Virus record (IMG/VR): IMGVR_UViG_3300036671_000177
Span: 1-57,427 of that record
DNA: 57,427 nt
DNA from: a virus
Strand: one strand, 5' to 3'
Part shown: positions 6,392 to 57,427 of the stretch, piece by piece
Position numbering within the stretch: position 1 is the first letter of the stretch
Layout: every line of letters starts with the position of its first letter
Made by a program: the position numbers and the translations under genes
Notes under the pieces: generated by a model
The model's database searches: none
Seen by the model: only the letters and a program-made list of their open reading frames with translations
What the model was told of the DNA's origin: nothing

Positions 6392-7394
6392 TTAGTTTTG
6401 CCTTAATAGATTCCTGCAATTCAAGGTCCTCCCTTACACGATTAACGAATGCTTCTTTACCTTGTACTTTTGATCCATCAGGAAGTATGTACCAGGCACC
6501 AGTGCGCTCTACAATACCGTTTAATTCTGCGGTAGTAACCAAGTCGCCAATGGTATCAAGACCAATATTATCGCCTCTGAAATAAAAATCATACTCACCA
6601 GACTGAAACCCTGGAGAGGTTTTGGAGAATTGTAATTCCCACTTAATAGTTCTACCAACTTTTTCTTCAATTAGTTTATCTCCCACTTTAATTTTTCCTT
6701 TAATCGCTTGATTGTCTGATTCGGAACTAAACAATTTAACAATGCAAGAAGAGTAAAACTTAGTAGCCTGCCCACCAGAAGGCTGCTGGCTAGTATACAT
6801 AGCATTAATATTATTACGAGACTGAGAAATAAGAACAATAAGAGTTGGCTTAACTTTGTTATTAGCATAATTAAGCATCTTCCATGCGTTACTGAAGTCA
6901 CGGGATTCTGCTCCAATCTGTTTTGTATTTTCTAAAGCCTTCATCTCATCTGTATCTTTTTCAAAATATATTGCAGGAAGCATTGATGTAATAGAGTCTA
7001 CCACAATTAGGTCTACTCCTGCATTCATTAATCCAACACCTACATCAACCATGTCGCTAATAGTTCTTGCTTGTGAGTAAATTAGTTTTGTTGGATCTAC
7101 CCCCAAAGTTCTAGCCCAATCTTCTGAGTAAGACATCTCTGAATCAATCCAAGCACACAACTTTCCTTCTGCCTGTGCTAAAGCAATCATCTGAAGGCAC
7201 ATAGAGGACTTTGCAGAAGACTTTGATCCCCAGATAAGAACCTGTCTGCCATAAGGCAGTCCACCCCCTAAGGCACGGTTTAAGCCATAACTAGGTGTTG
7301 GCTGATATTCATAGTTAACGCCAACCCCAGTTCCAAGTCTTTTTCTTAACTTGGGATCAAGCTGTGCTAACGCTTCTTCTATGCTAACTGACAT
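6384..7394 (-). CDS. recA: RecA-like recombinase
   Basis: A 336-residue strand-exchange ATPase. The core ATPase domain holds a P-loop at residues 56-63, a Walker B-like strand (VDLIVVDSITSM) and an LISQSRNN segment with the conserved Gln that senses ATP. The P-loop reads GSKSSAKS: Ala61 stands where nearly all RecA proteins have Gly. The ORF is open further upstream to 7442, but the ATG at 7394 has a GGAGG ribosome site 6 bases away and gives the normal RecA N-terminus (SIEEALAQL). It overlaps the 3' end of the DNA polymerase gene by 11 bases. It would act with the Cas4-like exonuclease and the resolvases next to it. Confidence 0.9.
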   Translation of the reverse strand: MSVSIEEALAQLDPKLRKRLGTGVGVNYEYQPTPSYGLNRALGGGLPYGRQVLIWGSKSSAKSSMCLQMIALAQAEGKLCAWIDSEMSYSEDWARTLGVDPTKLIYSQARTISDMVDVGVGLMNAGVDLIVVDSITSMLPAIYFEKDTDEMKALENTKQIGAESRDFSNAWKMLNYANNKVKPTLIVLISQSRNNINAMYTSQQPSGGQATKFYSSCIVKLFSSESDNQAIKGKIKVGDKLIEEKVGRTIKWELQFSKTSPGFQSGEYDFYFRGDNIGLDTIGDLVTTAELNGIVERTGAWYILPDGSKVQGKEAFVNRVREDLELQESIKAKLNG

Positions 7395-10300
7395 GTACAT
7401 CCTCCAATGTAATCGTTCCATCTTTTGTTTTTCCAAAATCAAACTTATAAGATTTTCCTTCTTCTATGTGCATGTATGCTTTTGCAAAAGATGTGGAAAA
7501 TACTGTAATAGAATGAAGATCTCTGCTTGTATCTGCAAGAGTAAGTGATGCCATCTTTTTGCCAGCCTTGGTTACTCGTGGTTTAAATGATACTACAAAC
7601 ATTTCATCATCCTTGTATGGCAACTGCTTGTAACTTAAGAACTTAACGAGTGCATGAGAAGATTCTTTTATTTCATCAGAAGGTATAAAAGAAACAATTC
7701 TGTTATCATTGCAAAGAAGTAAATAAGAACGACCTGTTTCTATAGTTGTATTCTCATCATCGAATATACCAACACTACCAGTTTTATCTAAGACTTCAAC
7801 TCTTGACCAGCCTGGTCCTCTTTTAATTGCCTTTACCATGCCCATAAAAATATATGATCCTTTTTCCTCAAAGTCATCTATGTCTTGAATGAATGCATAG
7901 TAGTGAGAAGGTATTGTAATATTAAACTCTGGCAAATTTAAATATTCATAAAGATTTTCTTTAATCTCTTGGTCATTTCTAGGATTATCATTAAAGGTTG
8001 CAGCACCAATTACTCTTAGTGCTTGTAGTGCACGACTGTTTACTCCGTTACCCTTGGTAAATGTAAACTCTTCAAGTTCTTTGTACGAACTGAATGGTCG
8101 TGCTGCCATATATCTTTCACCAATTTTGTCAGATATGAACTTGATAGCACTGAGTCCAAACCGAATACCCTTACCCTCAATTTTAAAATCAATATCCGAA
8201 TCGTTAATGTGAGGTAACTTAATACTAATGCCCATTCTTTTTGCTTCAATAAGATATTCAGTTCTTGCATCTTTGTCCTTTTCATTTTTTAATAGTGAGT
8301 ACATAAATTCAATTGGATAATAATATTTTAGCCACGCCGTCCAATATGACAGTGTCGAATATGCTACTGCATGAGACTTATTAAATGAGTACCCTGCGTG
8401 AGCCTCAAAGTCATGCCATAGATCACGAGCAAGATTGGGAGAAATAAACTTAGATGCACCTACTACGAACTTTTCCTTAAACTGATCAAATTCCTTAGCA
8501 TCCTTCTTCTTGCCAATGATCTTTCTGACTTTATCCGCCTCAGACATTGACATACCTCCAAGTGACACGCATGCCTGCATAACTTGTTCTTGGTAAAGAA
8601 TACAACCATAAGTTTCCCCCGTAAATTCCTTCAAAATGGTGTGAGTATAGTCGATGTTTTGACGACCATGCTTTCGTTCAATATAATCTTTTCCAATTGT
8701 ATTCATAGCACCTGGACGAACCAGGGCGTTTGATGCTGCAAGTTCTGAAAGATTTTTTACACCCATCTTAACAAGAAGGTTTGTGTATGGTGCTGCTTCA
8801 CATTGGAACACCCCCTTTGTGTATCCATCAGACAACATCTGATAAACATTAGCATCATCCATCTTGATCTTAAGAAGATCAATCTTTTTACCATCTCGCT
8901 CTTTAATAATATCAATTGTGTTCTTAAGAACAGATAAAGTTTTAAGACCTAGAGCATCTATCTTAATTAGACCAATCTTTTCTGCTTCTTCCATGTCAAC
9001 ACCAACAACAGGGATTCTATTATCAGAACCTGTAGAAGATCTTGTTTCTAATGGAGCATACCTAAAGATGGGATCTTTGCTAGTAACAACACCTGCAGCA
9101 TGAATTCCAGTTCCACGAATTCGACCACGAAGTTGTTCTCCGTAGATCTCTACCTCTGGATACTTTTCTCTAAACTCTCTTGTTGACCTTGAACTACAGA
9201 AATCATCCCAAGAGTCTACAGTCTTTAGGACTTTGTTTACATCTGACAAAGGTATGTTTAATACTCTTGAAACATCTCTAACAATTCCCTTACCAGTAAA
9301 CTGCAAAAAGGTTGCAATAGATGCAACATGTCTATATTGTCTAACTAAATAATCTTTTACCTCTTCACGACGAGTGTCTTGAATATCTGTATCGATATCA
9401 GGAAAATCATTTCGATCAGGGTTAATAAATCTAAAGAACAAAAGGTTGTGTTCTATTGGATCGATGTCTGTAATTCTTAAAGCATAACAAACAAGAGAGC
9501 CAGCAGAAGATCCACGACCTGGACCTACCATAATATCTTCTTTCTTTGCCCAGTTGATCATGTTACTTACAACAAGAAAGTATGGTGCAAACTTCTTATC
9601 TTTAATAATTTTAAGTTCTACTTCAAGCCTATCAAGGTATTCTTGGTTTTCTGACAAACCTCGCTCAACCAAACCTTCCATAGCAATCTTTGCTAGTTCT
9701 TTATCTGGACTCTTGTATTGAACAGGAAGAAGGTCTAGTCCTTCTTGAATGTCATAGTCTTCTACTGTGTCTGCTAGTAATAGTGTGTTTGAATAGATGT
9801 CTTCTCTATCGATACCCTGTAATTTCATGGCTTCTTTAATCTCTTCATAAGAAAGAAGGTGAATGTCAAACTTATTAAAAGTAATCTGTCGATCTTCCCC
9901 GTAAAGATAATCAAGACGCTTCATCATCGTTGGTTGCTTCTTAGACTTCTCGTATGAGGTTTCTTTAATAACCTTTGCGTGAGTGTTCATCAGTAGCTTA
10001 AACTCTTGAATTTCAATTTGAGATTTGTCTGAATGGTGGCAGTCTGGAGTTACGATGACCTTGATTTTAAACTCATCTGCAAGTTCTATAAGATACTTAT
10101 TGATATGCGCTTCTGTGTGAGGCATAACCTCAATATAGTAGTCATCACCAAACCTTTCTTTAAACCAGTTTATATACTTTTTAGCAATAGCAAACTCTTC
10201 TTCTTCAAGTGCTTTTACTAATACGCTACTTGGACAAGCAGAAGAAACAATAATTCCTTCTTTGTACTTATCTAATATAGCAAAATCAAACCTTGGCTTT

Positions 10301-47533: not shown

Positions 47534-49564
47534 CTACTTGATTTTTATCTCACAATAGTCTGTTGTACAGTAAGCCTCTCCTTGTGCTTCAAGGTTATCA
47601 ATACCGTCGTAAATTGCAGTAAAATCAATATGCTTCAACTTGCCAATATATGACTCATACTCTTCTTCAGTAATTCCTGTATATGGTTGTTGTGGATAAA
47701 CGGTATTACCCATTGGCAAGAAAGATACAGCCTTTAGTTGTCCCTCATACATATGAAGTACAGGAGCAACATGCTTAGACTCTGTTTCCTTATCAAAGGA
47801 TAATGTTACAGATACGCCATTGTCTGACCAGTACTTTTGAGCAGTTGCTGCAAGAGCAATTTTTTCAAATAAAGTAACCTCTTTTTCAGATCTCTGCTCT
47901 CCAGTCTTAACTGGAAAATAAACTACTGAAGTATTTGCTGAAACAACATCTGCTTCAATCGTATAGTCTGCTGCTTTAAATAAATGAAGCATTGGATCTG
48001 TATTTCCAAAACGAATAGCACGAAGATAGAATGCTCCACCAGGACCCCAGTGAACTCCAGGAGTTGCACCAGAAAGAATTGAAACAGAACCTGAAGGTTT
48101 TACAGTTGTTACACGAATTGACTCACGAACACATAGCCATTCTGAGTATTTCTTATCGTAATGACGAATCTTGTTATATCCTTCGTCCATCCATTCACGA
48201 ACTGCTGGTAAACCATTCTCATCAGCAAATGATGCAATACCTGTTAAGGATGTTCCAATACGACGATTACGTTGCATGATACCGTTTGTTTGTGGCCAGT
48301 GTGTTGGAAGAAGTGTTACAGTCTTTCCATAAAGATAAGCAAACTTCAATGTCTTGAGGAAGTCCTCCTTGGAGTCGTGACGATTTAAGTGCACTTCTAC
48401 AAGTGTACATAGTTCGTATGATTCCAATGGCTGCTCCGCACAAGGATTGAAGCCCATCACTCGATAGTCTTTGCCATCTGCAGGATCTGCAAGACGACCA
48501 TAATTACGAGCAACATCAAGCCAAACAAACCCTGGCTCTCCATTGTCAATAATTAAATCTGTATATTTTTCATAATCCATTCCTACTGTTGCAGAAATAG
48601 AATTGTTAGACATCCATGCCCATCCTGGATTTTCTGAATCAAAAGAGTTACGCTCTGGAAAAACTTCTGCATTCTTTAGATTAATAAAGTTATCATCTTC
48701 TGGTGTACCCAAAGCAAGAGTTGCTGAGCGACGAACATTTCCAGAAACAACACATGTTCCAATAAGGTTAATAATGTCTGTGATCCCACGAGAATCTAGA
48801 GTTTGCCCTGCTCTAGAGCCAATAACCTTGTCGATCTGCTCATGCATACGAATAAGTGGTGCTGGTCCGCTAGCAACCCCTCCAAAGCCCCTAATGGGGG
48901 CTCCTAAAGGACGTATCAAGTCATAGTTAAACTTTTGAATAGACTGGTTTGGTCTTAGGTATGAGTTAATTAAAATACGAACTGATTCTACCCATCCATC
49001 ACGAGTGTCTGGGATTTCATAGATCACTTCTGGCTCTGTAGGTTGACAGATTTGAATATTCTTATCCTGTCCTAAAGTATCAAACCCTACACCAATTCCA
49101 AGCATAAGTGCATCCATTACCCATGAGAACAATGCTCCTGGATCATTTTTGTCAATATCTTTTGTTGATACCATTGCGCAGTTTTGGAGTGCTGCAGAGT
49201 TTTTCTTTTCCATTGTCATGTGTGTTCCAAATGTCCACATTCCACGACCTGGTGGAGTCCACTTTAATTCAAACATTCTTTGAAATGCTTCTTGTGCTGA
49301 CTTTTGAGCCTTATAGTCATTCCATGGTAAACGGTTTTCCTTGGCATGATTCTTTTGAACTGAATACATGCCCTCGATTACACGGCGACAAACCTCATGC
49401 CATCTTTCTTTAGTTCCATCTTCTTTCATACGAGAGTATGTGCGAATAAAAGTAATCTCTCCAAGTGAATTTTCTGCTGCATCTTTAAACCCAAATGGGC
49501 TCTCTTGGTTTTTATACTTTTCTACAAAATCTTCTGGAAGTTTAAAACTAAAAAAATCTGACAT
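47534..49564 (-). CDS. nrdJ: Adenosylcobalamin-dependent ribonucleoside-triphosphate reductase (class II)
   Basis: A 676-residue monomeric class II reductase that makes dNTPs from NTPs with vitamin B12. It has the family opening (ITFIRTYSR, GRGMWTFGTHM), the first redox Cys in ALQNCAMVS, the NPCAEQPLESYELC block with the radical-bearing and second redox Cys, and a C-terminal CTTDYC pair for reduction by thioredoxin. The family is usually about 720-740 residues, so this one is slightly compact. It has a GAAAGGA ribosome site and a TGC-TATACT box 33 bases upstream. No intein or gap is visible. It supplies precursors for the phage DnaE polymerase. Confidence 0.92.
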   Translation of the reverse strand: MSDFFSFKLPEDFVEKYKNQESPFGFKDAAENSLGEITFIRTYSRMKEDGTKERWHEVCRRVIEGMYSVQKNHAKENRLPWNDYKAQKSAQEAFQRMFELKWTPPGRGMWTFGTHMTMEKKNSAALQNCAMVSTKDIDKNDPGALFSWVMDALMLGIGVGFDTLGQDKNIQICQPTEPEVIYEIPDTRDGWVESVRILINSYLRPNQSIQKFNYDLIRPLGAPIRGFGGVASGPAPLIRMHEQIDKVIGSRAGQTLDSRGITDIINLIGTCVVSGNVRRSATLALGTPEDDNFINLKNAEVFPERNSFDSENPGWAWMSNNSISATVGMDYEKYTDLIIDNGEPGFVWLDVARNYGRLADPADGKDYRVMGFNPCAEQPLESYELCTLVEVHLNRHDSKEDFLKTLKFAYLYGKTVTLLPTHWPQTNGIMQRNRRIGTSLTGIASFADENGLPAVREWMDEGYNKIRHYDKKYSEWLCVRESIRVTTVKPSGSVSILSGATPGVHWGPGGAFYLRAIRFGNTDPMLHLFKAADYTIEADVVSANTSVVYFPVKTGEQRSEKEVTLFEKIALAATAQKYWSDNGVSVTLSFDKETESKHVAPVLHMYEGQLKAVSFLPMGNTVYPQQPYTGITEEEYESYIGKLKHIDFTAIYDGIDNLEAQGEAYCTTDYCEIKIK

Positions 49565-49656: not shown

Positions 49657-50250
49657 TTAAAGAGTGTTCCATTTAAAAAATGGTCTATATGTTTCTAAGT
49701 CTATAACGTTTGGATCTACCCACCAGTCTTCATGTATTTCTCTTACTACTAAAGAATAACCAAGCGAGTCTAAAATTTCTCTTTGTGCATCCCTCATTGC
49801 TGTATTTCTCCAATACATATTTGCATCATGCTCAAAAGTAATAACAGAAAACCTATACTTGTTCAGTGGAACAGAAATCAATCCGTGCAAAGAAAGGTAG
49901 GCATTTCCTTGAGGTCTTCCATTAAGTTTATATCCAGAGTCAATATCTACCTGTAAGTAGTCTATTTGATCTGGAAAATTATTTTCTTGAAAATATTTTA
50001 TATAATCAAATTTTGTTGCATCACCAAGGACACATGGATTTTTTCTATTTTTTGAAACTTCTTTATGTAGTTCTGGGACTATCTCAAATGAAACACCAGA
50101 CCAATCAAATTCATTCTCAAGTCTATAGGTATTACTTCCATTTATAGAGTGTGCAGCACCTAGTTCTACATAGTATCCGTTTTTTTTATTATTTAACACA
50201 TTTAAAACAAACTGCTCTTGCTCACTAAACTGTTGATGGTGCAAGGGCAT
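49657..50250 (-). CDS. FkbM-type SAM-dependent methyltransferase, 197 aa
   Basis: A 197-residue methyltransferase. The SAM-binding motif I is GYYVELGAAHSINGSN, and the acidic SFEIVPE follows, typical of the FkbM branch, which methylates hydroxyl groups on sugars, antibiotics and other small molecules. A (Q)VDIDSGY strand forms motif IV. The frame stays open to a GTG at 50292, but the ATG at 50250 directly follows the stop of the last oxygenase gene (TAAAATG), so coupled translation from this ATG is preferred. It is the final gene of the oxygenase run, which suggests that it may methylate a hydroxyl that an oxygenase makes. Confidence 0.8.
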   Translation of the reverse strand: MPLHHQQFSEQEQFVLNVLNNKKNGYYVELGAAHSINGSNTYRLENEFDWSGVSFEIVPELHKEVSKNRKNPCVLGDATKFDYIKYFQENNFPDQIDYLQVDIDSGYKLNGRPQGNAYLSLHGLISVPLNKYRFSVITFEHDANMYWRNTAMRDAQREILDSLGYSLVVREIHEDWWVDPNVIDLETYRPFFKWNTL

Positions 50251-50251
50251 T

Positions 50252-50881
50252 TTAGTGAATCCAGTGTTGTGGAACCATAATCTTTTCACCACTCTTAACT
50301 AGATGAGCAGTGTGATGGTACGGTGGTGATGGAGGAAACACAATGATGCTTCCTGCTTTTGGTTTTACTGCAAAAGTGTAGACTTTGTTTTTTTCTGCTT
50401 CTGCAAAATCTGCTTCTGGACTTGCATTTTGTAAAACTCCATCTGGTGAAGCAATAGTAAAAGAAATTTCTCCGCCTTCGTAATCATCATTAAGATACAT
50501 AACAAAAGAAACCTTTAGCCTTTCGTCACCTTCTTGTTGGTCAAAGTGTGCACCCATAAAGGTTCCTGGTTGATACTTTTTAATTGGATACTGAGGAAAG
50601 AGTTTTGGCTCATCCGTAATTCCTTGCGCCTTAGCATAATCTCTTGCTACATCATCAAATGCTTTTTGCAAGGTTTCATAAATATATTTATTTTTTTCAT
50701 CTGTTTCTGATGTTAAAGTAATGGTCTTGTCTGTTCCATAAACATATGCTTGACCACTACAAGCCATCCATTCACCCCAGGGGTTCTTGTTGTCATCTTC
50801 AATTGCATTTATTAATTTCTTAGGATCCTCAATTACATTTGTGTAATAGTAAACCTTTTCTTCAAGTATCTCTCTATTCAT
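50252..50881 (-). CDS. 2OG-Fe(II) oxygenase, prolyl 4-hydroxylase-like (copy 7)
   Basis: A 209-residue dioxygenase with a double-stranded beta-helix. Iron ligands are His112 and Asp114 (GAHFDQQ) and His190 (HHTAHLV); Lys200 (SGEKIMV) stands where 2-oxoglutarate is held, usually an Arg or Lys. The MYLNDDYEGGEISF and KPKAGSIIVFP blocks are those of the whole set. Copy 7 carries a longer loop (residues 138-162) between the second strand and the KPKAG block. The ATG has a GGGGGA ribosome site. It is the last oxygenase before the methyltransferase gene. The substrate is unknown. Confidence 0.88.
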   Translation of the reverse strand: MNREILEEKVYYYTNVIEDPKKLINAIEDDNKNPWGEWMACSGQAYVYGTDKTITLTSETDEKNKYIYETLQKAFDDVARDYAKAQGITDEPKLFPQYPIKKYQPGTFMGAHFDQQEGDERLKVSFVMYLNDDYEGGEISFTIASPDGVLQNASPEADFAEAEKNKVYTFAVKPKAGSIIVFPPSPPYHHTAHLVKSGEKIMVPQHWIH

Positions 50882-50889
50882 TATTCCCC

Positions 50890-51552
50890 CTAGTATTTAT
50901 TGTTTTCGTAAAAGTTTTTAAGTTTTATAAAACCAACAAGAACATACCTAATTGGTCCTTCTCCAACATGTCTTACTCCGTGCTCATACTCTTCGTTTCC
51001 TGGAAAAACAAGAAGAGTTCCTGATTTTGGAACAGGCTCTACTCCTGGTTTATTTTTAAAAAACAAAGTTCCATCTTTATAGTCATCATTAAGATAAAGT
51101 ATCGCTGCATGTCTAATTGATGGGTCTGTGTGTTGATCTGTATGGCTTTTTAGTTCAACTCCAGGCTGCATCCTTTGTAGTGTTGCAAAGCCAGAAAGAT
51201 CTAATTGATCATCTGAAAGAGTAATTAATTTTTGAAGTCTTCCATGAATTGTTCTTGAAATAGCAAGATGACGAATGTCTAAGTTTTTGTCATACCAGTT
51301 ATGTGTTATTTCATATTTTCCTTCAGCAACAAGGTTATCTATGTCGTCTCTTCCAAACTTTTCCATACAAAAGTTTTTTAAACTTTTTTTATATTCTACA
51401 GACCAATCTTCGTCTTTTGTTCCATTAATTAAAGATAGTATTTCTTCTAACTCTTCCTTTAACAAAAAATTTTCAATCATAAGGATCTCTCCTTCAAGGA
51501 TTGTAGGGTTAAACCCTGCATCATCTAACTCTTTCTTTAAAAATATTTCCAT
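50890..51552 (-). CDS. 2OG-Fe(II) oxygenase, prolyl 4-hydroxylase-like (copy 6)
   Basis: A 220-residue member of the set. Iron ligands are His137, Asp139 (SHTDQHT) and His191 (EYEHGVRHV); Arg202 (PIRYVLV) should bind 2-oxoglutarate. The YLNDDYKDGTLFF block has Asp-Gly in place of the Gly-Gly seen in most copies. The N-terminal half is helical (LLKEELEEILSLI) and may hold the substrate. A GGAGG site precedes the ATG. It is separated from copy 5 by 4 bases and from copy 7 by 8 bases. Confidence 0.88.
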   Translation of the reverse strand: MEIFLKKELDDAGFNPTILEGEILMIENFLLKEELEEILSLINGTKDEDWSVEYKKSLKNFCMEKFGRDDIDNLVAEGKYEITHNWYDKNLDIRHLAISRTIHGRLQKLITLSDDQLDLSGFATLQRMQPGVELKSHTDQHTDPSIRHAAILYLNDDYKDGTLFFKNKPGVEPVPKSGTLLVFPGNEEYEHGVRHVGEGPIRYVLVGFIKLKNFYENNKY

Positions 51553-51556
51553 AGTA

Positions 51557-52300
51557 TTACTCCTCCACCTTATACTTATTGCCTTCAGAGTCTATTTTAT
51601 ACCCTTTTTTTAAAATTTCTTGCCATTCTGCTCTTTCAATCTCTTGTTTTGCTCTTGTCTCTTTCATCTCTGCTGCCCAAGAGTCTCTGAGTTCTTGCGG
51701 GTACGCATTTTCTTCTCTATCATCCCAAAATGATCCTATTGTATACCTTACTCCACTAGTAATAAGGGACACTTCGTGCATATTGTTAAATCCCCCGTCA
51801 AAAACGGCAAGCATTCCAACCTTGGGTTGAATTTCTATCTCTTGTCCTGGAAACTTAAGAAGACCACCCTCAAAATCATCATTTAAATATAAAAATCCTG
51901 CATACCTGCTTCTTGTAAATGCCCCCGAGTTTCCTCCTGCATCTGTATTGTCTGAATGAATACGAGCATATGCACCTGGCTCCCATTTTTGAGTGTGATA
52001 ACCAATTTTAGAAATTATTTTTGGATCTAGATCATGAACTGATGCAATTGCTACAGGCACCATATTTTCAATATCTGAAAAAATAGTTGGTACTAGTCCT
52101 GCATCAATAACTTCTTGATCGTTGTCTTGTGGCAAAACAGAAGAATATGACTCATAAAAAGAAATAGGCATCCAAGACATTTTTCCGTTTTCTGCTTGAG
52201 CATCTAAAGCATTTACAATTTTAGAACATTCATCTTTGGTTAAAAAGTCTTCGTAAACAACAATATCTTTTGTTATTCTATTTTTATTATTTAAATTCAT
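51557..52300 (-). CDS. 2OG-Fe(II) oxygenase, prolyl 4-hydroxylase-like (copy 5)
   Basis: A 247-residue member with iron ligands His115 and Asp117 (RIHSDNTDAG) and His175 (NMHEVSLI), and Arg185 (VRYTIG) for 2-oxoglutarate. The FLYLNDDFEGGLLKF block is conserved. It has a longer C-terminal extension (about 60 residues after the fold) rich in Glu, Lys and Arg (KETRAKQEIERAEWQEILKKGY) that looks like a helix and could hold a partner. An AGAGGA ribosome site is present. It overlaps copy 4 by 4 bases. Confidence 0.88.
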   Translation of the reverse strand: MNLNNKNRITKDIVVYEDFLTKDECSKIVNALDAQAENGKMSWMPISFYESYSSVLPQDNDQEVIDAGLVPTIFSDIENMVPVAIASVHDLDPKIISKIGYHTQKWEPGAYARIHSDNTDAGGNSGAFTRSRYAGFLYLNDDFEGGLLKFPGQEIEIQPKVGMLAVFDGGFNNMHEVSLITSGVRYTIGSFWDDREENAYPQELRDSWAAEMKETRAKQEIERAEWQEILKKGYKIDSEGNKYKVEE

Positions 52301-53154
52301 TGTATCCTCTTTTCTTTTTTTGCACTCATTTTATTTGGATGGTCGTCTCTAAATTTTTGCATAATTTCTGGTTGCATCTTTTCCCAAACATCTTTGCCAA
52401 ACTCTTCTTCTTTATCAAACCATTCATCAGATCCAACTTCATATTTCATCCAGTACATTCTAGAAATATATTTGTTTTCTCCTTTTGCAGGCATGACTCC
52501 ATGTAAGTATACCTGGCCTTCTTTAGTTAATACGTTTGGATGCCCTGAAGGAAATAATAAAAAATCTCCTGCTTTTGGCTTATACATGTATGCTTCTCCA
52601 TTTACAATAAAGTCAATCTCTCCGCCTTCGTAGTCATCATTAAAATAAGTCAAAGCAGTAATTGCAAACTTGTATCCTGGGCTTATGATTGGCTCTCTAA
52701 TGTAATCAGAGTGATACGTCATAGCAAGTGGGTCATCTGTGTCTGTTTTATATCTTGCTATTGATGGACCGTTAGTGGTCCATTCGTTTGTAGGCTGACC
52801 GTTTTTTTTAATCAAAATTTTGTCTATGTCAAATTCTACATTATTTGTTTTTATATAATGTTCGGTTGCTATGTGAAAATTTTCAAATAGTTCTACGACT
52901 GCATTTTTTTGATCTTTTTCTTTTTTTGTACTTGTTTTTACTTTTTTAAATTCATCGAGGCCCATGGTATATGGATAGTCTTTAAATAACGGATTAACAT
53001 AATCTCCAAAAAAAGACCACTGTGTCCATGGACTAAGAAGGCCTTCGTTATTTTTATTTTTTAAAACTAAAAGAGTGTTGTGTATATCTTTAAAAAGATT
53101 TTTATATACAAAAACTTTAGGATATATTTCAATAAAATCTATGTCTTTATTCAT
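52297..53154 (-). CDS. 2OG-Fe(II) oxygenase, prolyl 4-hydroxylase-like (copy 4)
   Basis: A 285-residue member, the longest. Iron ligands are His148 and Asp150 (TYHSDYIRE) and His218 (VYLHGVMPA); Arg232 (YISRMYW) or Lys228 is the likely 2-oxoglutarate contact. The TYFNDDYEGGEIDF block and KPKAGDFLLFPSG are conserved. It has a longer loop between the strand with VLTKEGQ and a C-terminal basic helix. Its ATG overlaps the stop of copy 3 (TAATG), with only a weak ribosome site further up, so it is likely coupled to copy 3. Confidence 0.88.
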   Translation of the reverse strand: MNKDIDFIEIYPKVFVYKNLFKDIHNTLLVLKNKNNEGLLSPWTQWSFFGDYVNPLFKDYPYTMGLDEFKKVKTSTKKEKDQKNAVVELFENFHIATEHYIKTNNVEFDIDKILIKKNGQPTNEWTTNGPSIARYKTDTDDPLAMTYHSDYIREPIISPGYKFAITALTYFNDDYEGGEIDFIVNGEAYMYKPKAGDFLLFPSGHPNVLTKEGQVYLHGVMPAKGENKYISRMYWMKYEVGSDEWFDKEEEFGKDVWEKMQPEIMQKFRDDHPNKMSAKKEKRIQ

Positions 53155-53828
53155 TATGGCTGTCTTTCCCCAGTGTGCTTAATTATCTCCCAAAAAAATG
53201 GGCATGTAAATCTTAATCCACTTTTAACTTCCGTTACTCCATGAATATAATTTTTGTCTCCTGGGAAAAAATATGCCGATCCCCTTTTTGGCTTAAACTG
53301 CACATTTTGTTTTGGAAAATATAATTCTCCGCCTTCGTAATCATCGTTTAAATAAAATAAACTAGAAATATCATAGTTTGGAAAATCATTAGGTGTTCCA
53401 GCATCTGGCCCTTCATGAAGTTCTTTGTCTGCATGAGGTTTTTGAAATTGTCCTGGAAGCCACTTGACAATTGTAGTTCCTGTAGGGTTAACTTCTACTT
53501 TATAAAAATCCTCAACAATTGGCTTTAATCTTTCAAACAGTCCTGCAATTATCGGAGAAATAGATCGATCATTCTTGTCTAAGGTTGGCTGTGTTGCAAC
53601 TCGATCTTTCCAGTAATCTGAATCATAAACGACTGTTCCATTTTCATTTACATGGCTTTGAGTTACATCCCAAATAGTTAAAGATTTTGCAGCCTTTTCT
53701 AAAAATAACATTTCTTCTTCTGTCATAAAATTTTGTAATTCTACAATCATATCTTTGCTATCTCCAAACCACCCAGAGGGAGTCATTGAAGGCTTTCTTA
53801 CTACAACAGATGAATTTATTTTTTCCAT
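53154..53828 (-). CDS. 2OG-Fe(II) oxygenase, prolyl 4-hydroxylase-like (copy 3)
   Basis: A 224-residue member with iron ligands His132 and Asp134 (KPHADKEL) and His196 (NYIHGVTEV) and Arg206 (GLRFTC) for 2-oxoglutarate. FYLNDDYEGGELYF and KPKRGSAYFFPGD blocks are intact. The long loop after HADKE (about 15 residues) is acidic. It follows a TGA-TATAAT box only 5 bases before the ATG, with no ribosome site, so a separate transcript may begin here that covers copies 3-7 and the methyltransferase. Confidence 0.9.
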   Translation of the reverse strand: MEKINSSVVVRKPSMTPSGWFGDSKDMIVELQNFMTEEEMLFLEKAAKSLTIWDVTQSHVNENGTVVYDSDYWKDRVATQPTLDKNDRSISPIIAGLFERLKPIVEDFYKVEVNPTGTTIVKWLPGQFQKPHADKELHEGPDAGTPNDFPNYDISSLFYLNDDYEGGELYFPKQNVQFKPKRGSAYFFPGDKNYIHGVTEVKSGLRFTCPFFWEIIKHTGERQP

Positions 53829-53855: not shown

Positions 53856-54311
53856 CTATAAAATCCTATTTATTTCTAGTTGTTTTAAAAATCTGTCTGA
53901 ACTAAATCTCCAGTTATCTTTTGCAAAGGAAGTAACAATTTTTATACATGCTTCTTCATAGTCTTCTTTATTTAATTTATTTTTTAAAGAATGAAGCACT
54001 TCAACTATATCGATATAGTTTTGTCTAACAAAAGATGGATCTCCTGCATGGTTTCTTTTTAAAACTTTTTCAACCTTATTTCCCGATGGATCATATAAAG
54101 ATACGGTTAAATAGTTTTTTGCAAAACCAGCGTCCTGATACATATCATATCCTTCTAAAGCCTGTTTTTCATTATCAAAAGAAATTATTGATCTAACTGG
54201 AGACTCTTCATCTCTAGAAACTGTTATCATATAATGACTAACTTTGCCTTCTTTAGCATTTTTGATATAATTGTTTACCATGTCATCATGCGTAATTTTT
54301 AATTCATTCAT
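53856..54311 (-). CDS. Unknown protein inside the oxygenase block, 151 aa
   Basis: A 151-residue protein between the two module copies and the further oxygenases. The first half is beta-alpha (MITVSRDEESPVRSIISFD, ALEGYDMYQDAGF), the second has two charged helices (DIVEVLHSLKNKLNKEDYEEACIKIV). No named family was recognised. It starts on the stop of the second DUF6065-like gene (TAATG). Its place suggests a role with the oxygenases, for example as a partner protein, but this is only context. Confidence 0.7.
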   Translation of the reverse strand: MNELKITHDDMVNNYIKNAKEGKVSHYMITVSRDEESPVRSIISFDNEKQALEGYDMYQDAGFAKNYLTVSLYDPSGNKVEKVLKRNHAGDPSFVRQNYIDIVEVLHSLKNKLNKEDYEEACIKIVTSFAKDNWRFSSDRFLKQLEINRIL

Positions 54312-55015
54312 TACTTACCCTTATCTTTCACTGTCAGTTTTAAAGTTTTTACTTCATGATACCCAAGAGGCTCTTGTTTTTCATTTACAGCATTTCTATA
54401 CCAATCTGTCCAGTCTCCAGATGAGTTTAACTTTTGTGCTGCACTTCCATAGGATATGTTTGCATCAATTCTTTTTCTATCTTCATCAGAATAATCTACG
54501 ATAGTAATAGTACTGTTGTTTAGTTGACTTAAAGAAATAGGAATTATTGTTGCTACTGGAGTTCCTGCTTTAATTACCGTTTTTTTATTAGGAATCTTTG
54601 CTTTAAGTGCAAGAGGAAGAGGATTATCATAAAATGACGTACTAATCAAAGATGACATTGTTTCAAATTCATCAGTAAAGTAGTTAACTGGATTAATCAT
54701 AAACATACTAACATCTTGTTGTGTTCTAAATATTAGTCCTGTATCAATGCTTATTGATGATTGACCTCTTCCAGAGTAAGCACTTAATGGACTAAATATT
54801 TCAACATGACTTGAACTTTGATCATTTACTCCATCCCAAATAAATTCTATGTCTTCTTTACAAGAAAGACTATAGCCAATAACATTTGCCTGGGTTACTG
54901 GAAAACACCTATAAGCATGATTTTCAGAAGTCTTGTCCATCCAGTCTCTTTTAATAGACATTGGAGAAAGTTCAAAAATTGCTCCTGGCATTTTTTCAAC
55001 AATTATGTCATACAC
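54311..55015 (-). CDS. DUF6065-like protein (second copy), 234 aa
   Basis: A 234-residue protein whose N-terminal part (SIKRDWMDKTSENHAYRCFPV, TQANVIGYSLSC, IEFIWDG) matches what I know of the DUF6065 family, which is often found beside oxygenase or sugar-modifying genes. The C-terminal part includes a KAGTPVATIIPISL strand pair. The start is a GTG overlapping the stop of oxygenase copy 2 (TAGTG). A neighbouring copy behind oxygenase copy 1 has the same gene order and the same start overlap. Function is unknown. Confidence 0.7.
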   Translation of the reverse strand: MYDIIVEKMPGAIFELSPMSIKRDWMDKTSENHAYRCFPVTQANVIGYSLSCKEDIEFIWDGVNDQSSSHVEIFSPLSAYSGRGQSSISIDTGLIFRTQQDVSMFMINPVNYFTDEFETMSSLISTSFYDNPLPLALKAKIPNKKTVIKAGTPVATIIPISLSQLNNSTITIVDYSDEDRKRIDANISYGSAAQKLNSSGDWTDWYRNAVNEKQEPLGYHEVKTLKLTVKDKGK

Positions 55016-55671
55016 TAGTTAGACTCTTCTACGTACATTTCTGGGGTATGAAACTTTTTATTATAATCTAACATCGTGACAATTGAATATTTAATTCCAG
55101 AAGTGACTGGCATTGCTTGGTGAGCATACATGAAGTTTGATGGAAAGATGAATAGGTCTCCTGCTTCTGGCTTAACCTTTAAATCTTGAAGCCTAAAGTA
55201 TAACTCCCCGCCATCATAGTCATCATTTATATAACCAACCAAAGATACAGTGCAGTTATAAGAAAACCCATGGTCGTGGTGCTCCATAAAGTGTTGTCCT
55301 GGCCCATATTTAATAAAATTAAACGCTTCCCAATATTGAAGATTATTAATGTTATACATTCTTGAATAATCCTGAACGACTGGAAGTTTTACATCATACA
55401 GGTCCTGCCATAAAGACTGTAGATTTAGCCCTACAGGACTTTTGTCATGCTCTATGTCTGTTTTTTTATATTTAAAATCATTGCAGTCTCTATAATCTGG
55501 CATCAACTGTTTATACCCAACATATGCAGGCTGCCAACTATAACCAGTTTCGTCTCCTTCTGGTTTTAGATTGGCCTCAATTCTTTCTATAACGTTAATT
55601 TCTTTTTTAATAACATTTTTGTAACAAAAAATACCATTTCCAAGATCTTGTTTTTCTGTCCATGTTTGCAT
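55015..55671 (-). CDS. 2OG-Fe(II) oxygenase, prolyl 4-hydroxylase-like (copy 2)
   Basis: A 218-residue member. Iron ligands are His131, Asp133 (MEHHDHG) and His184 (MYAHQAM); Lys194 (GIKYSIV) contacts 2-oxoglutarate. The WEAFNFIKYGPGQHF, YNCTVSLVGYINDDYDGGELYF and KPEAGDLFIFPSN blocks closely follow copy 1, including DC-x-DFKYK in the N-terminal half. The frame is open to 55731, but the ATG at 55671 has an AAGGA site 7 bases away that overlaps the stop of the gene before it. That start removes the 50-base overlap. Confidence 0.9.
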   Translation of the reverse strand: MQTWTEKQDLGNGIFCYKNVIKKEINVIERIEANLKPEGDETGYSWQPAYVGYKQLMPDYRDCNDFKYKKTDIEHDKSPVGLNLQSLWQDLYDVKLPVVQDYSRMYNINNLQYWEAFNFIKYGPGQHFMEHHDHGFSYNCTVSLVGYINDDYDGGELYFRLQDLKVKPEAGDLFIFPSNFMYAHQAMPVTSGIKYSIVTMLDYNKKFHTPEMYVEESN

Positions 55672-55681
55672 AATATATTCC

Positions 55682-56458
55682 TTATCTATATTCTCTTCTT
55701 GACCAGACTTTATTTTTATAAATACCGCCATCTGGTTGACGATAAAAGTTTGCGTTATCTACCATTTTATCATACATTTCTGACTGTGCCAAAATCTCAA
55801 GTTCATGACTCCAGTTTTCTCTTTTAAATGGAAGAATTTGCAGGTAAGGCGTTCCTGCTGGAATAGTTCCTTCCCAACCATCTGCAATAAAAAAAGGAAA
55901 ACTTCCAAGAAGATGAACGCTATCTGAATCAACTACTCCTGTTGTATTTATAAATGGAAGATCAAACCTATTCATGGGTGTCATAAATAAGGCACTGTAT
56001 CCCTCTGGTAACTCCAAGCCCCAATCAGCAAACCAAGCAAAATGATGTTTGTAAAATCCTTTTGGATGTTCAAATTGTGGCATTGGCGGTCTTTGAGTAC
56101 AAAAATCTTTATATCTTAAATCTTCAATTTTTACATTAATTATTCCTTGATCATTTTTAAAAAAAACTAAATCGCATGGAGTTTTAAAAACATACCCAGT
56201 TGAAAATGCATCCATGATTGCAGGACAGGCTTTCCATGTTGGAATCTTTCCATAGTCGTCAACAGTTCCTTCTTTAGGAAATGGACAAACCTCTTTTGGC
56301 GCTTTATAATATTCTCCATTTGGCATTTTAGCAAATCTGTCTGCATCTTTGTACCATTCTGGAATAACGCTTTGAGTTGATGAGGGAACGCTGATACTTT
56401 CTTTATTTAACCAAGGCCTAAATGATCTAAATATTGCTAGATTAAGCTTTTCGCTCAC
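55682..56458 (-). CDS. DUF6065-like protein (first copy), 258 aa
   Basis: A 258-residue protein without a recognised catalytic motif. It shares with the second copy a helix-strand start (CPAIMDAFSTGYVFKTPCDLVFF), an aromatic core (EGYSALFMTPMNRFDLPFINTTG) and a PAGTPYLQILPFKR segment that aligns with KAGTPVATIIPIS. The conserved Trp and Phe density suggests a compact fold like that of cupin or hydroxylase-type small proteins. The start is a GTG that overlaps the stop of oxygenase copy 1 (TAGTG). Similarity to DUF6065 is weaker than in the second copy. Confidence 0.65.
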   Translation of the reverse strand: MSEKLNLAIFRSFRPWLNKESISVPSSTQSVIPEWYKDADRFAKMPNGEYYKAPKEVCPFPKEGTVDDYGKIPTWKACPAIMDAFSTGYVFKTPCDLVFFKNDQGIINVKIEDLRYKDFCTQRPPMPQFEHPKGFYKHHFAWFADWGLELPEGYSALFMTPMNRFDLPFINTTGVVDSDSVHLLGSFPFFIADGWEGTIPAGTPYLQILPFKRENWSHELEILAQSEMYDKMVDNANFYRQPDGGIYKNKVWSRREYR

Positions 56459-57171
56459 TACTTATGGCCTAGTTCATTTATGTCTGTCATAACAACAACA
56501 CAGTACTTTGTTCCTGACTCCATAGGCAAAGAGGCATGCTCATATATATAGTTAGAAGGAAAAATGGCAATGTCTCCAACCTTTGGTTTATACACTAGGT
56601 TATCTAGTCTTGGGAACTTTAAGTCCCCACCTTCGTATTCGTCATTAATATAGATAACGGCAGACACAGTACAATTATATGCTGGGCCATGGTCTGCGTG
56701 TATATTAAAATGAGTACCTTTTCCTTCATACTTAACAAAGTTGAATGCTTCATAATATACAACATTTATACCCCAATATTTTGCATAGTCGTCTATACAA
56801 TACTTAAGTTTTTGATATATCTCTTCATGTAGATCTATTAACTCTGAGTTATGCTCATCTCTTGTTCCCAAATTTTCTTGCTTGTATTTAAAATCAACAC
56901 AGTCTCTTGCTTTTTTAATTGGTGTGGTAGAGTTTGTTACTGTTGCTTCAGACCACTTATATTTTTTATTTGTTGATAGGTTTGATTCAAGAATATCAAT
57001 ATATCTATTTGCATCATTTAATGAAAATGTGTTTTGATAAACATGTAGTCCTATTCCTAAGTTTGATACAGAAACATTGTTGTCTAAAAATCTTTTGGCA
57101 ACCCTATTTGACGCTGTTTCGGATCTATCTTTTGTAAACCACGGATTAACATTTTCATCATATATTGACAT
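56458..57171 (-). CDS. 2OG-Fe(II) oxygenase, prolyl 4-hydroxylase-like (copy 1)
   Basis: A 237-residue member, first in its run. Iron ligands are His158 and Asp160 (NIHADHG) and His212 (IYEHASL); Lys222 (GTKYCVV) is the expected 2-oxoglutarate contact. The YEAFNFVKY, YNCTVSAVIYINDEYEGGDLKF and KPKVGDIAIFPSN blocks are intact. The frame is open to a GTG at 57216, but that codon lies inside a terminator-like hairpin; the ATG at 57171 has a GATAGGA ribosome site about 6 bases upstream and is preferred. It follows the Pro/Phe-repeat protein gene, across the hairpin. Confidence 0.9.
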   Translation of the reverse strand: MSIYDENVNPWFTKDRSETASNRVAKRFLDNNVSVSNLGIGLHVYQNTFSLNDANRYIDILESNLSTNKKYKWSEATVTNSTTPIKKARDCVDFKYKQENLGTRDEHNSELIDLHEEIYQKLKYCIDDYAKYWGINVVYYEAFNFVKYEGKGTHFNIHADHGPAYNCTVSAVIYINDEYEGGDLKFPRLDNLVYKPKVGDIAIFPSNYIYEHASLPMESGTKYCVVVMTDINELGHK

Positions 57172-57199
57172 TTTATTCCTATCTCTATTAAAGTTTTCT

Positions 57200-57239
57200 A
57201 AATAAAAGTATACCACACCAAGACTCTGATGTGGTATAC
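57200..57239 (-). terminator. Hairpin terminator after the Pro/Phe-repeat gene
   Basis: A perfect 10-base-pair stem (gtataccaca, 57208-57217, with tgtggtatac, 57230-57239) and a 12-base loop, followed on the minus strand by TTTTATTT. It lies 18 bases after the stop of the repeat-protein gene and 36 bases before the oxygenase start. The 3' arm also contains the TGG-TATACT promoter-like box. Confidence 0.75.
57207..57215 (-). promoter_or_regulatory. Extended -10 box inside the hairpin, before oxygenase copy 1
   Basis: Minus-strand TGG-TATACT (hexamer 57207-57212) overlaps the downstream arm of the terminator hairpin. It is about 35 bases before the ATG at 57171. This would start the oxygenase transcript while the hairpin ends the upstream one, so the site may serve both purposes. 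Confidence 0.5.
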
Positions 57240-57256
57240 CTTACTTAGTTTTTATA

Positions 57257-57427
57257 TCATGTAGCCCTTGGTGACAATGGGCCCCCAAAGCGTGGGAAGT
57301 ACGGGAAGTACGGTGGGAAGAACGGGAAGTACGGTGGGAAGAATGGTCCAAAGCCTGGGAAGAATGGTGGGAAGAATGGGAAGAACGGGAAGAATGGGAA
57401 GAATGGTGGAAAGAATGGGAAGAATGG
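57257..57427 (-). CDS. Pro/Phe-repeat protein, 3' end only (5' end beyond the window)
   Basis: The last 56 codons of a minus-strand frame that runs off the right edge and ends with TGA at 57257. It is made of short blocks such as PFFPFFPPFF and PPYFPYFP: 20 Pro, 23 Phe and 3 Tyr in 56 residues, with a basic end (SPRAT). The bases form an imperfect repeat of a 9-base unit (gggaagaat on the plus strand). All other genes are on the minus strand and a terminator follows directly after the stop, which supports this strand. No family was recognised. A run of hydroxylase-like genes starts right after it, so its prolines are candidate substrates. Confidence 0.7.
   Translation of the reverse strand, partial: PFFPFFPPFFPFFPFFPFFPPFFPGFGPFFPPYFPFFPPYFPYFPRFGGPLSPRAT
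57291..57427. repeat. Short imperfect tandem repeat (GGGAAGAAT-like units)
   Basis: Units of about 9 bases (gggaagaat, gggaagaac, gggaagtac, with inserted ggt) run in phase to the right edge of the window. They code for Pro-Phe-Phe units on the minus strand. The repeat is likely to vary in length between related phages. Confidence 0.85.

Follow-up and report, generated by a model that had tools for sequence, protein, structure and literature searches.

Clusters of 2OG-Fe(II) oxygenases are among the most puzzling common genes of aquatic phages, and are usually filed as auxiliary metabolic genes with unknown substrate; the use of prolyl 4-hydroxylase (P4H) by viruses has been called cryptic in one recent paper (PMC9301287). 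Chlorovirus PBCV-1 encodes a P4H that hydroxylates Pro-containing peptides sequence-specifically (Eriksson et al. 1999, cited in PMC7019647), but this is one enzyme in an algal virus and its role in replication is unknown. Groups of 2OG-Fe(II) oxygenases of the same superfamily, with several copies per phage, occur in cyanophages and pelagiphages and have been linked to DNA repair, iron or 2OG/nitrogen metabolism (PMC3037559, PMC9599517). In pelagiphages these are frequently near each other but not adjacent, and are partnered with ferrochelatase, and no repeat substrate has been proposed. Bacterial P4Hs (PDB 3itq, 5hv0; Pseudomonas putida P4H/EF-Tu 4iw3) are single housekeeping enzymes whose known substrates are not Pro-Phe-Phe (PFF) repeats. 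Finally, collagen-like phage tail proteins and viral collagen hydroxylation offer a case of a repeat structural protein with protein hydroxylases near it.

Here, we analyzed a stretch of 57,427 nucleotides (hereafter the window), corresponding to the whole of IMG/VR virus record IMGVR_UViG_3300036671_000177. The window ends inside a gene for a PFF repeat protein of a bacterial virus, next to which lies a set of seven P4H-like enzymes (five to eight paralogues in relatives). The enzymes share the HxD...H core of the bacterial P4Hs, which are their closest solved relatives by sequence, while identity of the window enzyme to cyanophage homologues is about 25-39%. Differently from collagen, the repeat has no Gly-X-Y (it is made of Pro and Phe with 0.7% Gly), and collagen-like genes are only sometimes nearby. 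Literature searches, which did not cover subscription papers, found no description of this repeat.

The repeat gene and the neighbouring oxygenases

A sequence-only reading of the window had proposed that the gene directly upstream of seven prolyl-hydroxylase-like enzymes codes for a C-terminus made of Pro-Phe-Phe units, and this observation is confirmed. The minus-strand frame from 57427 to 57257 reads PFFPFFPPFFPFFPFFPFFPPFFPGFGPFFPPYFPFFPPYFPYFPRFGGPLSPRAT*, i.e. 56 residues, of which 20 are Pro and 23 Phe, followed by a TGA stop. The record ends at 57427, and only the 3' end of the gene is therefore present. The locus is organized as follows:

57257..57427 (-), 3' end of the repeat gene (C-terminal 56 aa), which runs off the contig
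57185..57256 (-), strong hairpin (z -6.2) followed by UUUUAUUU, probable (partial) terminator or processing site
56458..57171 (-), oxygenase 7 (2OG-Fe(II), PF13640), first after the repeat gene
55682..56458 (-), DUF6065-like protein b
55015..55731 (-), oxygenase 6 (PF13640)
54311..55015 (-), DUF6065 protein a (PF19541, E 3e-25)
53856..54311 (-), 151-aa protein of unknown function
53154..53828 (-), oxygenase 5 (PF13640)
52297..53154 (-), oxygenase 4 (PF13640)
51557..52300 (-), oxygenase 3 (PF13640)
50890..51552 (-), oxygenase 2 (PF13640)
50252..50881 (-), oxygenase 1 (PF13640)
49657..50292 (-), 211-aa protein, methyltransferase-like by eye only (no Pfam hit)
47534..49564 (-), B12-dependent ribonucleotide reductase (RNR), which borders the cassette in PFF and non-PFF relatives alike

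The reading frame is neither due to chance nor an artefact. A scan with the first oxygenase found 348 relatives (this and other related loci and records are designated here by L or G numbers), among which the near-identical contig L008, whose first oxygenase is 100% identical, carries the complete gene at 7081-7911. This codes for a short N-terminus (MAAGKK..KSQASNDFLEPLAP), two fibronectin-III (FN3) domains, then PFFPPFFPFF... and a short tail. In L008 and in more than 100 relatives the same frame runs from a start codon through two FN3 domains into the repeat, and the Pro and Phe codons vary at the third base (CCA/CCG/CCT/CCC; TTC/TTT). The G+K/N-rich plus-strand frame is also open to the contig end, but these continuous minus-strand ORFs and their third-base variation rule it out as the real gene. 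G+C is 53%, against 36% for the window. Full-length orthologues are L008:7081-7911 and L010 (C-tail RFGSPLGPRVT against RFGGPLSPRAT in the window). The repeat is thus a C-terminal module of a multidomain protein, and not a protein made of repeats only. It probably breaks assembly, as of 25 related loci with under 1.5 kb upstream of the first oxygenase, 20 show a PFF ORF and 19 of these are cut by the contig end.

For the window protein the presence of FN3 domains rests on orthology. Pfam fn3 is over the cut-off in relatives L024, L316, and L319, whereas L008 itself scores 22.2 bits, below the cut-off of 25. However, the AlphaFold model of L008 has two confident beta-sandwiches (mean pLDDT above 90) that match tandem FN3 structures, followed by a repeat without predicted secondary structure (pLDDT about 60). 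BLAST of the 56-aa repeat against cultured phages gave nothing, although this search says little because BLAST masks low complexity, and the FN3 part also gave nothing. The nearest cultured capsid is that of Streptomyces phages such as Comrade (about 40%, Stanwilliamsviridae), and an actinobacterial host is therefore likely, though not shown.

In 138 unique relatives the repeat has a median of 20 units (5 to 50) and consists of 53% Phe, 42% Pro, and 2% Tyr. The tails that follow it are Cys-rich (59), short without Cys (58), or long and Hint-like (18). The Cys-rich tails are hypervariable and 20-45 residues long (L015, L024, L029, L069, L325), and in G069 two different repeat proteins end in nearly the same Cys-rich tail (L325, L326). 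The Hint-like (bacterial intein-like, BIL) regions follow the aromatic repeat in many relatives (L314:11904-13199, L316:11297-12520, L050:2937-4226, L085:6572-7876), some with Cys...HNK and others lacking the catalytic residues; the PF14890 score is 35.0 bits against a cut-off of 35.8, and the best PDB match is 2lwy (BIL, E 2e-4). Such a domain could self-process or cross-link the C-terminus, but the window protein has a short tail instead. The gene upstream of the repeat gene is a tail-fibre protein (Mtd_N, tail-fibre PHROGs) or, in some relatives, a collagen-like tail protein, which gives only indirect indication that the repeat protein may belong to the virion.

Concerning the enzymes, that seven of them lie directly downstream of the repeat gene is right, although two DUF6065-like genes and one unknown gene are interspersed and the hairpin separates the repeat gene from the first oxygenase. 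A consensus scan for terminators found none, but the strong fold suggests that the late structural message ends there and that the enzymes are expressed at another level. All seven oxygenases score 32.6-50.9 bits against the PF13640 cut-off of 27; the iron-binding H158, D160, and H212 are invariant, a Lys or Arg stands at the 2OG-binding place, and 724 of 789 related enzymes fit the motif. A profile of the seven best matches solved bacterial P4Hs, then prolyl 3-hydroxylase 1 (P3H1), PiuC, EGLN1, and LH3, all of them protein hydroxylases.

In the 58 PFF loci with 7 kb downstream, orthologues of oxygenase 7 are present in 58, of oxygenases 6 and 5 in 97%, of oxygenase 3 in 88%, of oxygenase 2 in 83%, of oxygenase 1 in 81%, and of oxygenase 4 in 50%, while they almost never occur in non-PFF loci. 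As part of these loci were found through oxygenase 7 itself, its 100% is not free of selection. The 151-aa and the methyltransferase-like proteins are present in only 22 and 13 of the 58 loci, respectively, and are not fixed members. DUF6065 is near constant at this locus (two copies with PFF, one with FGA/FTPY repeats; e.g. L319:8535-9293) and has relatives in haloarchaeal tailed viruses (HF1, HRTV).

Pairing of repeat type and enzyme family among relatives

The sequence-only reading had named co-occurrence of the repeat and the oxygenases in related phages as the test of their link, and the link survived this test: co-occurrence was close to perfect in both directions. Of 50 records chosen by a PFF DNA pattern only, 47 have PF13640, mostly in six or seven copies; of the three without, two are contigs cut inside the PFF gene and one (L130/G021) has the repeat on a different protein. 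Among loci chosen by the first oxygenase, 41 of 41 with more than 4 kb upstream have a PFF ORF there. Among relatives chosen by capsid protein, the four PFF-positive records have 5, 6, 7, and 6 copies, while most of the 29 PFF-negative ones have 0-3, with the exceptions of G080, whose contig starts inside the set, and G081, which has six PF13640 genes that are scattered and not in this position. In 257 billion bases of bacterial and archaeal genomes there is one hit, L207 in GTDB genomes, which is a phage contig with the same gene order, arguing against a bacterial origin of the module.

PFF-negative relatives keep the same FN3 protein at the same place, between tail fibre and RNR gene, but with another aromatic repeat and other downstream genes. 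Scans with the FN3 domains of these relatives gave, together with the earlier loci, 118 dereplicated proteins with at least 4 kb downstream. Of the 69 with PFF or PPxFF repeats, 67 have at least three PF13640 genes within 9 kb and one has a second enzyme family; the two exceptions are second copies that precede the main tail-fibre/FN3 locus or tail-fibre genes. Of the 49 with other repeats, none has such a set: the FGFSPFG/FTPFGF (31) and NYYNFY (3) types have instead the second family in 32 of 34, and the FGAFGA (12) and FTPYAF (3) types have neither (0 of 15), but one DUF6065 each. With FN3-recruited loci only, 30 PFF loci have at least three PF13640 genes and one has fewer, against 26 non-PFF loci with fewer and none with at least three. 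These cut-offs were set after seeing the first data. The records are fragments, and absence of enzymes in a fragment is weak evidence, while the positive pairings do not suffer from this. The rare variants PPGFFA (L409) and PPLFFG (L559) also carry five and four PF13640 genes, respectively.

The second family has no sequence match to Pfam, PDB, or the window enzymes, and we found no sequence homology between the two families. However, it is predicted with good confidence to have a 2OG-oxygenase (double-stranded beta-helix) fold with a His pair and Arg (model pLDDT 86; Z 16.5 to 3bvc, 13-14 to PHD2 and P. putida P4H). Phages with Tyr-containing SFTPYAF repeats have a sulfotransferase-like gene (PF03567, 21.6 bits, just under cut-off) next to the repeat gene (L322:4247-5047 and L330), hinting at possible tyrosine sulfation, but two further FTPY loci (L331, L333) lack it.

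INDEPENDENCE. On an FN3-domain tree the PFF label changes seven times on the best tree and three times on supported branches, each time with the oxygenase set, but three pairs cannot reach significance (sign test, p 0.25). The FG/NYY label changes 16 times (seven on supported branches), with the second family following in about six, which is borderline (p 0.03). The pairing is thus very clean, but the number of firmly independent events is small for PFF.

Within a genome, every repeat-bearing protein found uses the same repeat type. Thirteen PFF records have no FG-type motif and three FG records have no PFF motif. At least eight PFF records carry the module at a second, distant site on an unrelated protein: long FN3 arrays (L452, L456, L458), InlB-like repeats (L451), PASTA-like (L326, L455), or Thr-Pro repeats (L457), these domain names being by eye except FN3. 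Similarly, G066 and G063 have their FTPFGF-Hint module on both an FN3 and a PASTA-like protein. The module thus behaves as a transferable unit whose chemistry is uniform within a genome, as expected if one set of enzymes serves all copies.

Possible role of the oxygenases

The proposal of the sequence-only reading that the repeat protein is the substrate of the adjacent hydroxylases is partly supported. The analysis establishes the gene and its architecture, the intact iron-binding residues of the neighbouring non-identical oxygenases, the near-perfect pairing of PFF/PPxFF repeats with this set and of FGFSPFG/NYY repeats with a different family of predicted 2OG-oxygenase fold, and the use of one repeat type per genome even on unrelated proteins. 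That repeat type and enzymes differ together is stronger support than adjacency. In contrast, hydroxylation itself, the residue modified, the module as substrate, the virion location, and any role as fibre, adhesive, or droplet former are inferences, without experimental evidence.

We consider it more likely than not that the enzymes use O2, Fe(II), and 2-oxoglutarate to hydroxylate the repeat module of a tail or surface protein, most likely at C4 or C3 of its prolines. A module of about 42% Pro and 53% Phe offers almost no nucleophile, and C-H hydroxylation is the obvious chemistry that could change it. Several paralogues could divide the positions, each preferring another one (the Pro after FF, the first or second Pro of PP, the last units). 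In this view, 4-hydroxyproline would stiffen a polyproline-like chain and make a very hydrophobic sequence more soluble, and the product would be a stiff, aromatic, and partly hydrophilic adhesive or cohesive module on the virion or on phage-made surface proteins, swapped between phages together with its enzymes. The FG types may resemble FG-nucleoporin or resilin-like sequences. However, FTPY repeats contain Pro yet have no oxygenase next to them, so that proline alone does not predict the enzymes, and repeat length does not track enzyme number (rho 0.21, p 0.11). The main exception to the pairing is a 38-kb fragment (G021/L328), which has several collagen-like genes and a PFF linker inside a different protein (L328:5085-6062) without PF13640 in the part seen.

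The most serious alternative, which we nevertheless consider rather unlikely, is that repeat protein and oxygenases are swapped together as one receptor or host-adaptation island, but that the enzymes modify something else, such as a virion glycan, another tail protein, or a host envelope component. Linked genes can be co-inherited without interaction, 2OG oxygenases also act on DNA, lipids, and small molecules, and the set also holds DUF6065 genes and, in some relatives, a sulfotransferase-like gene. Moreover, in Comrade (L450, 5361-9398), a distant relative although among the nearest cultured ones, two glycosyltransferases occupy the place upstream of the RNR gene where the window has the oxygenase set. 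Yet, the match follows the chemistry of the repeat and not just the locus, and all repeat-bearing proteins of a genome share one type although they sit far apart.

It is very unlikely that the oxygenases are instead collagen prolyl hydroxylases, with the PFF protein as a bystander. P4H acts on collagens elsewhere, and collagen-like genes lie directly upstream of the PFF gene in L024 (5324-6043) and L066 (6161-6871), where they may be additional substrates, but a collagen-like ORF is found within 2.5 kb upstream in only 13 of 68 PFF loci, while the oxygenase set is near constant. Equally improbable is a role as ordinary auxiliary metabolic genes, as suggested for other phages (PMC3037559, PMC9599517), since this does not explain the fixed place next to the repeat gene or the match with repeat type.

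A bolder hypothesis, which remains tentative and somewhat less likely than not, is that of a phage repeat and enzyme code: an aromatic low-complexity module, transferable between unrelated surface proteins, would exist in several types (PFF, FGFSPFG, FTPY, FGA, NYY), each paired with its own set of modifying enzymes, so that a phage would change the surface chemistry of all its repeat-bearing proteins at once by swapping repeat and enzymes, the PFF type being poly-hydroxylated by six or seven dedicated hydroxylases. The module has almost no Lys or Arg, and tryptic proteomics would largely miss it. In these freshwater phages the repeat type predicts the enzyme family in almost every case, which provides a concrete and testable candidate substrate for these enzymes. 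If right, this would represent protein hydroxylation on a large scale in a bacterial virus, a new kind of sticky biomaterial sequence, and a reason why many such contigs break at this spot.
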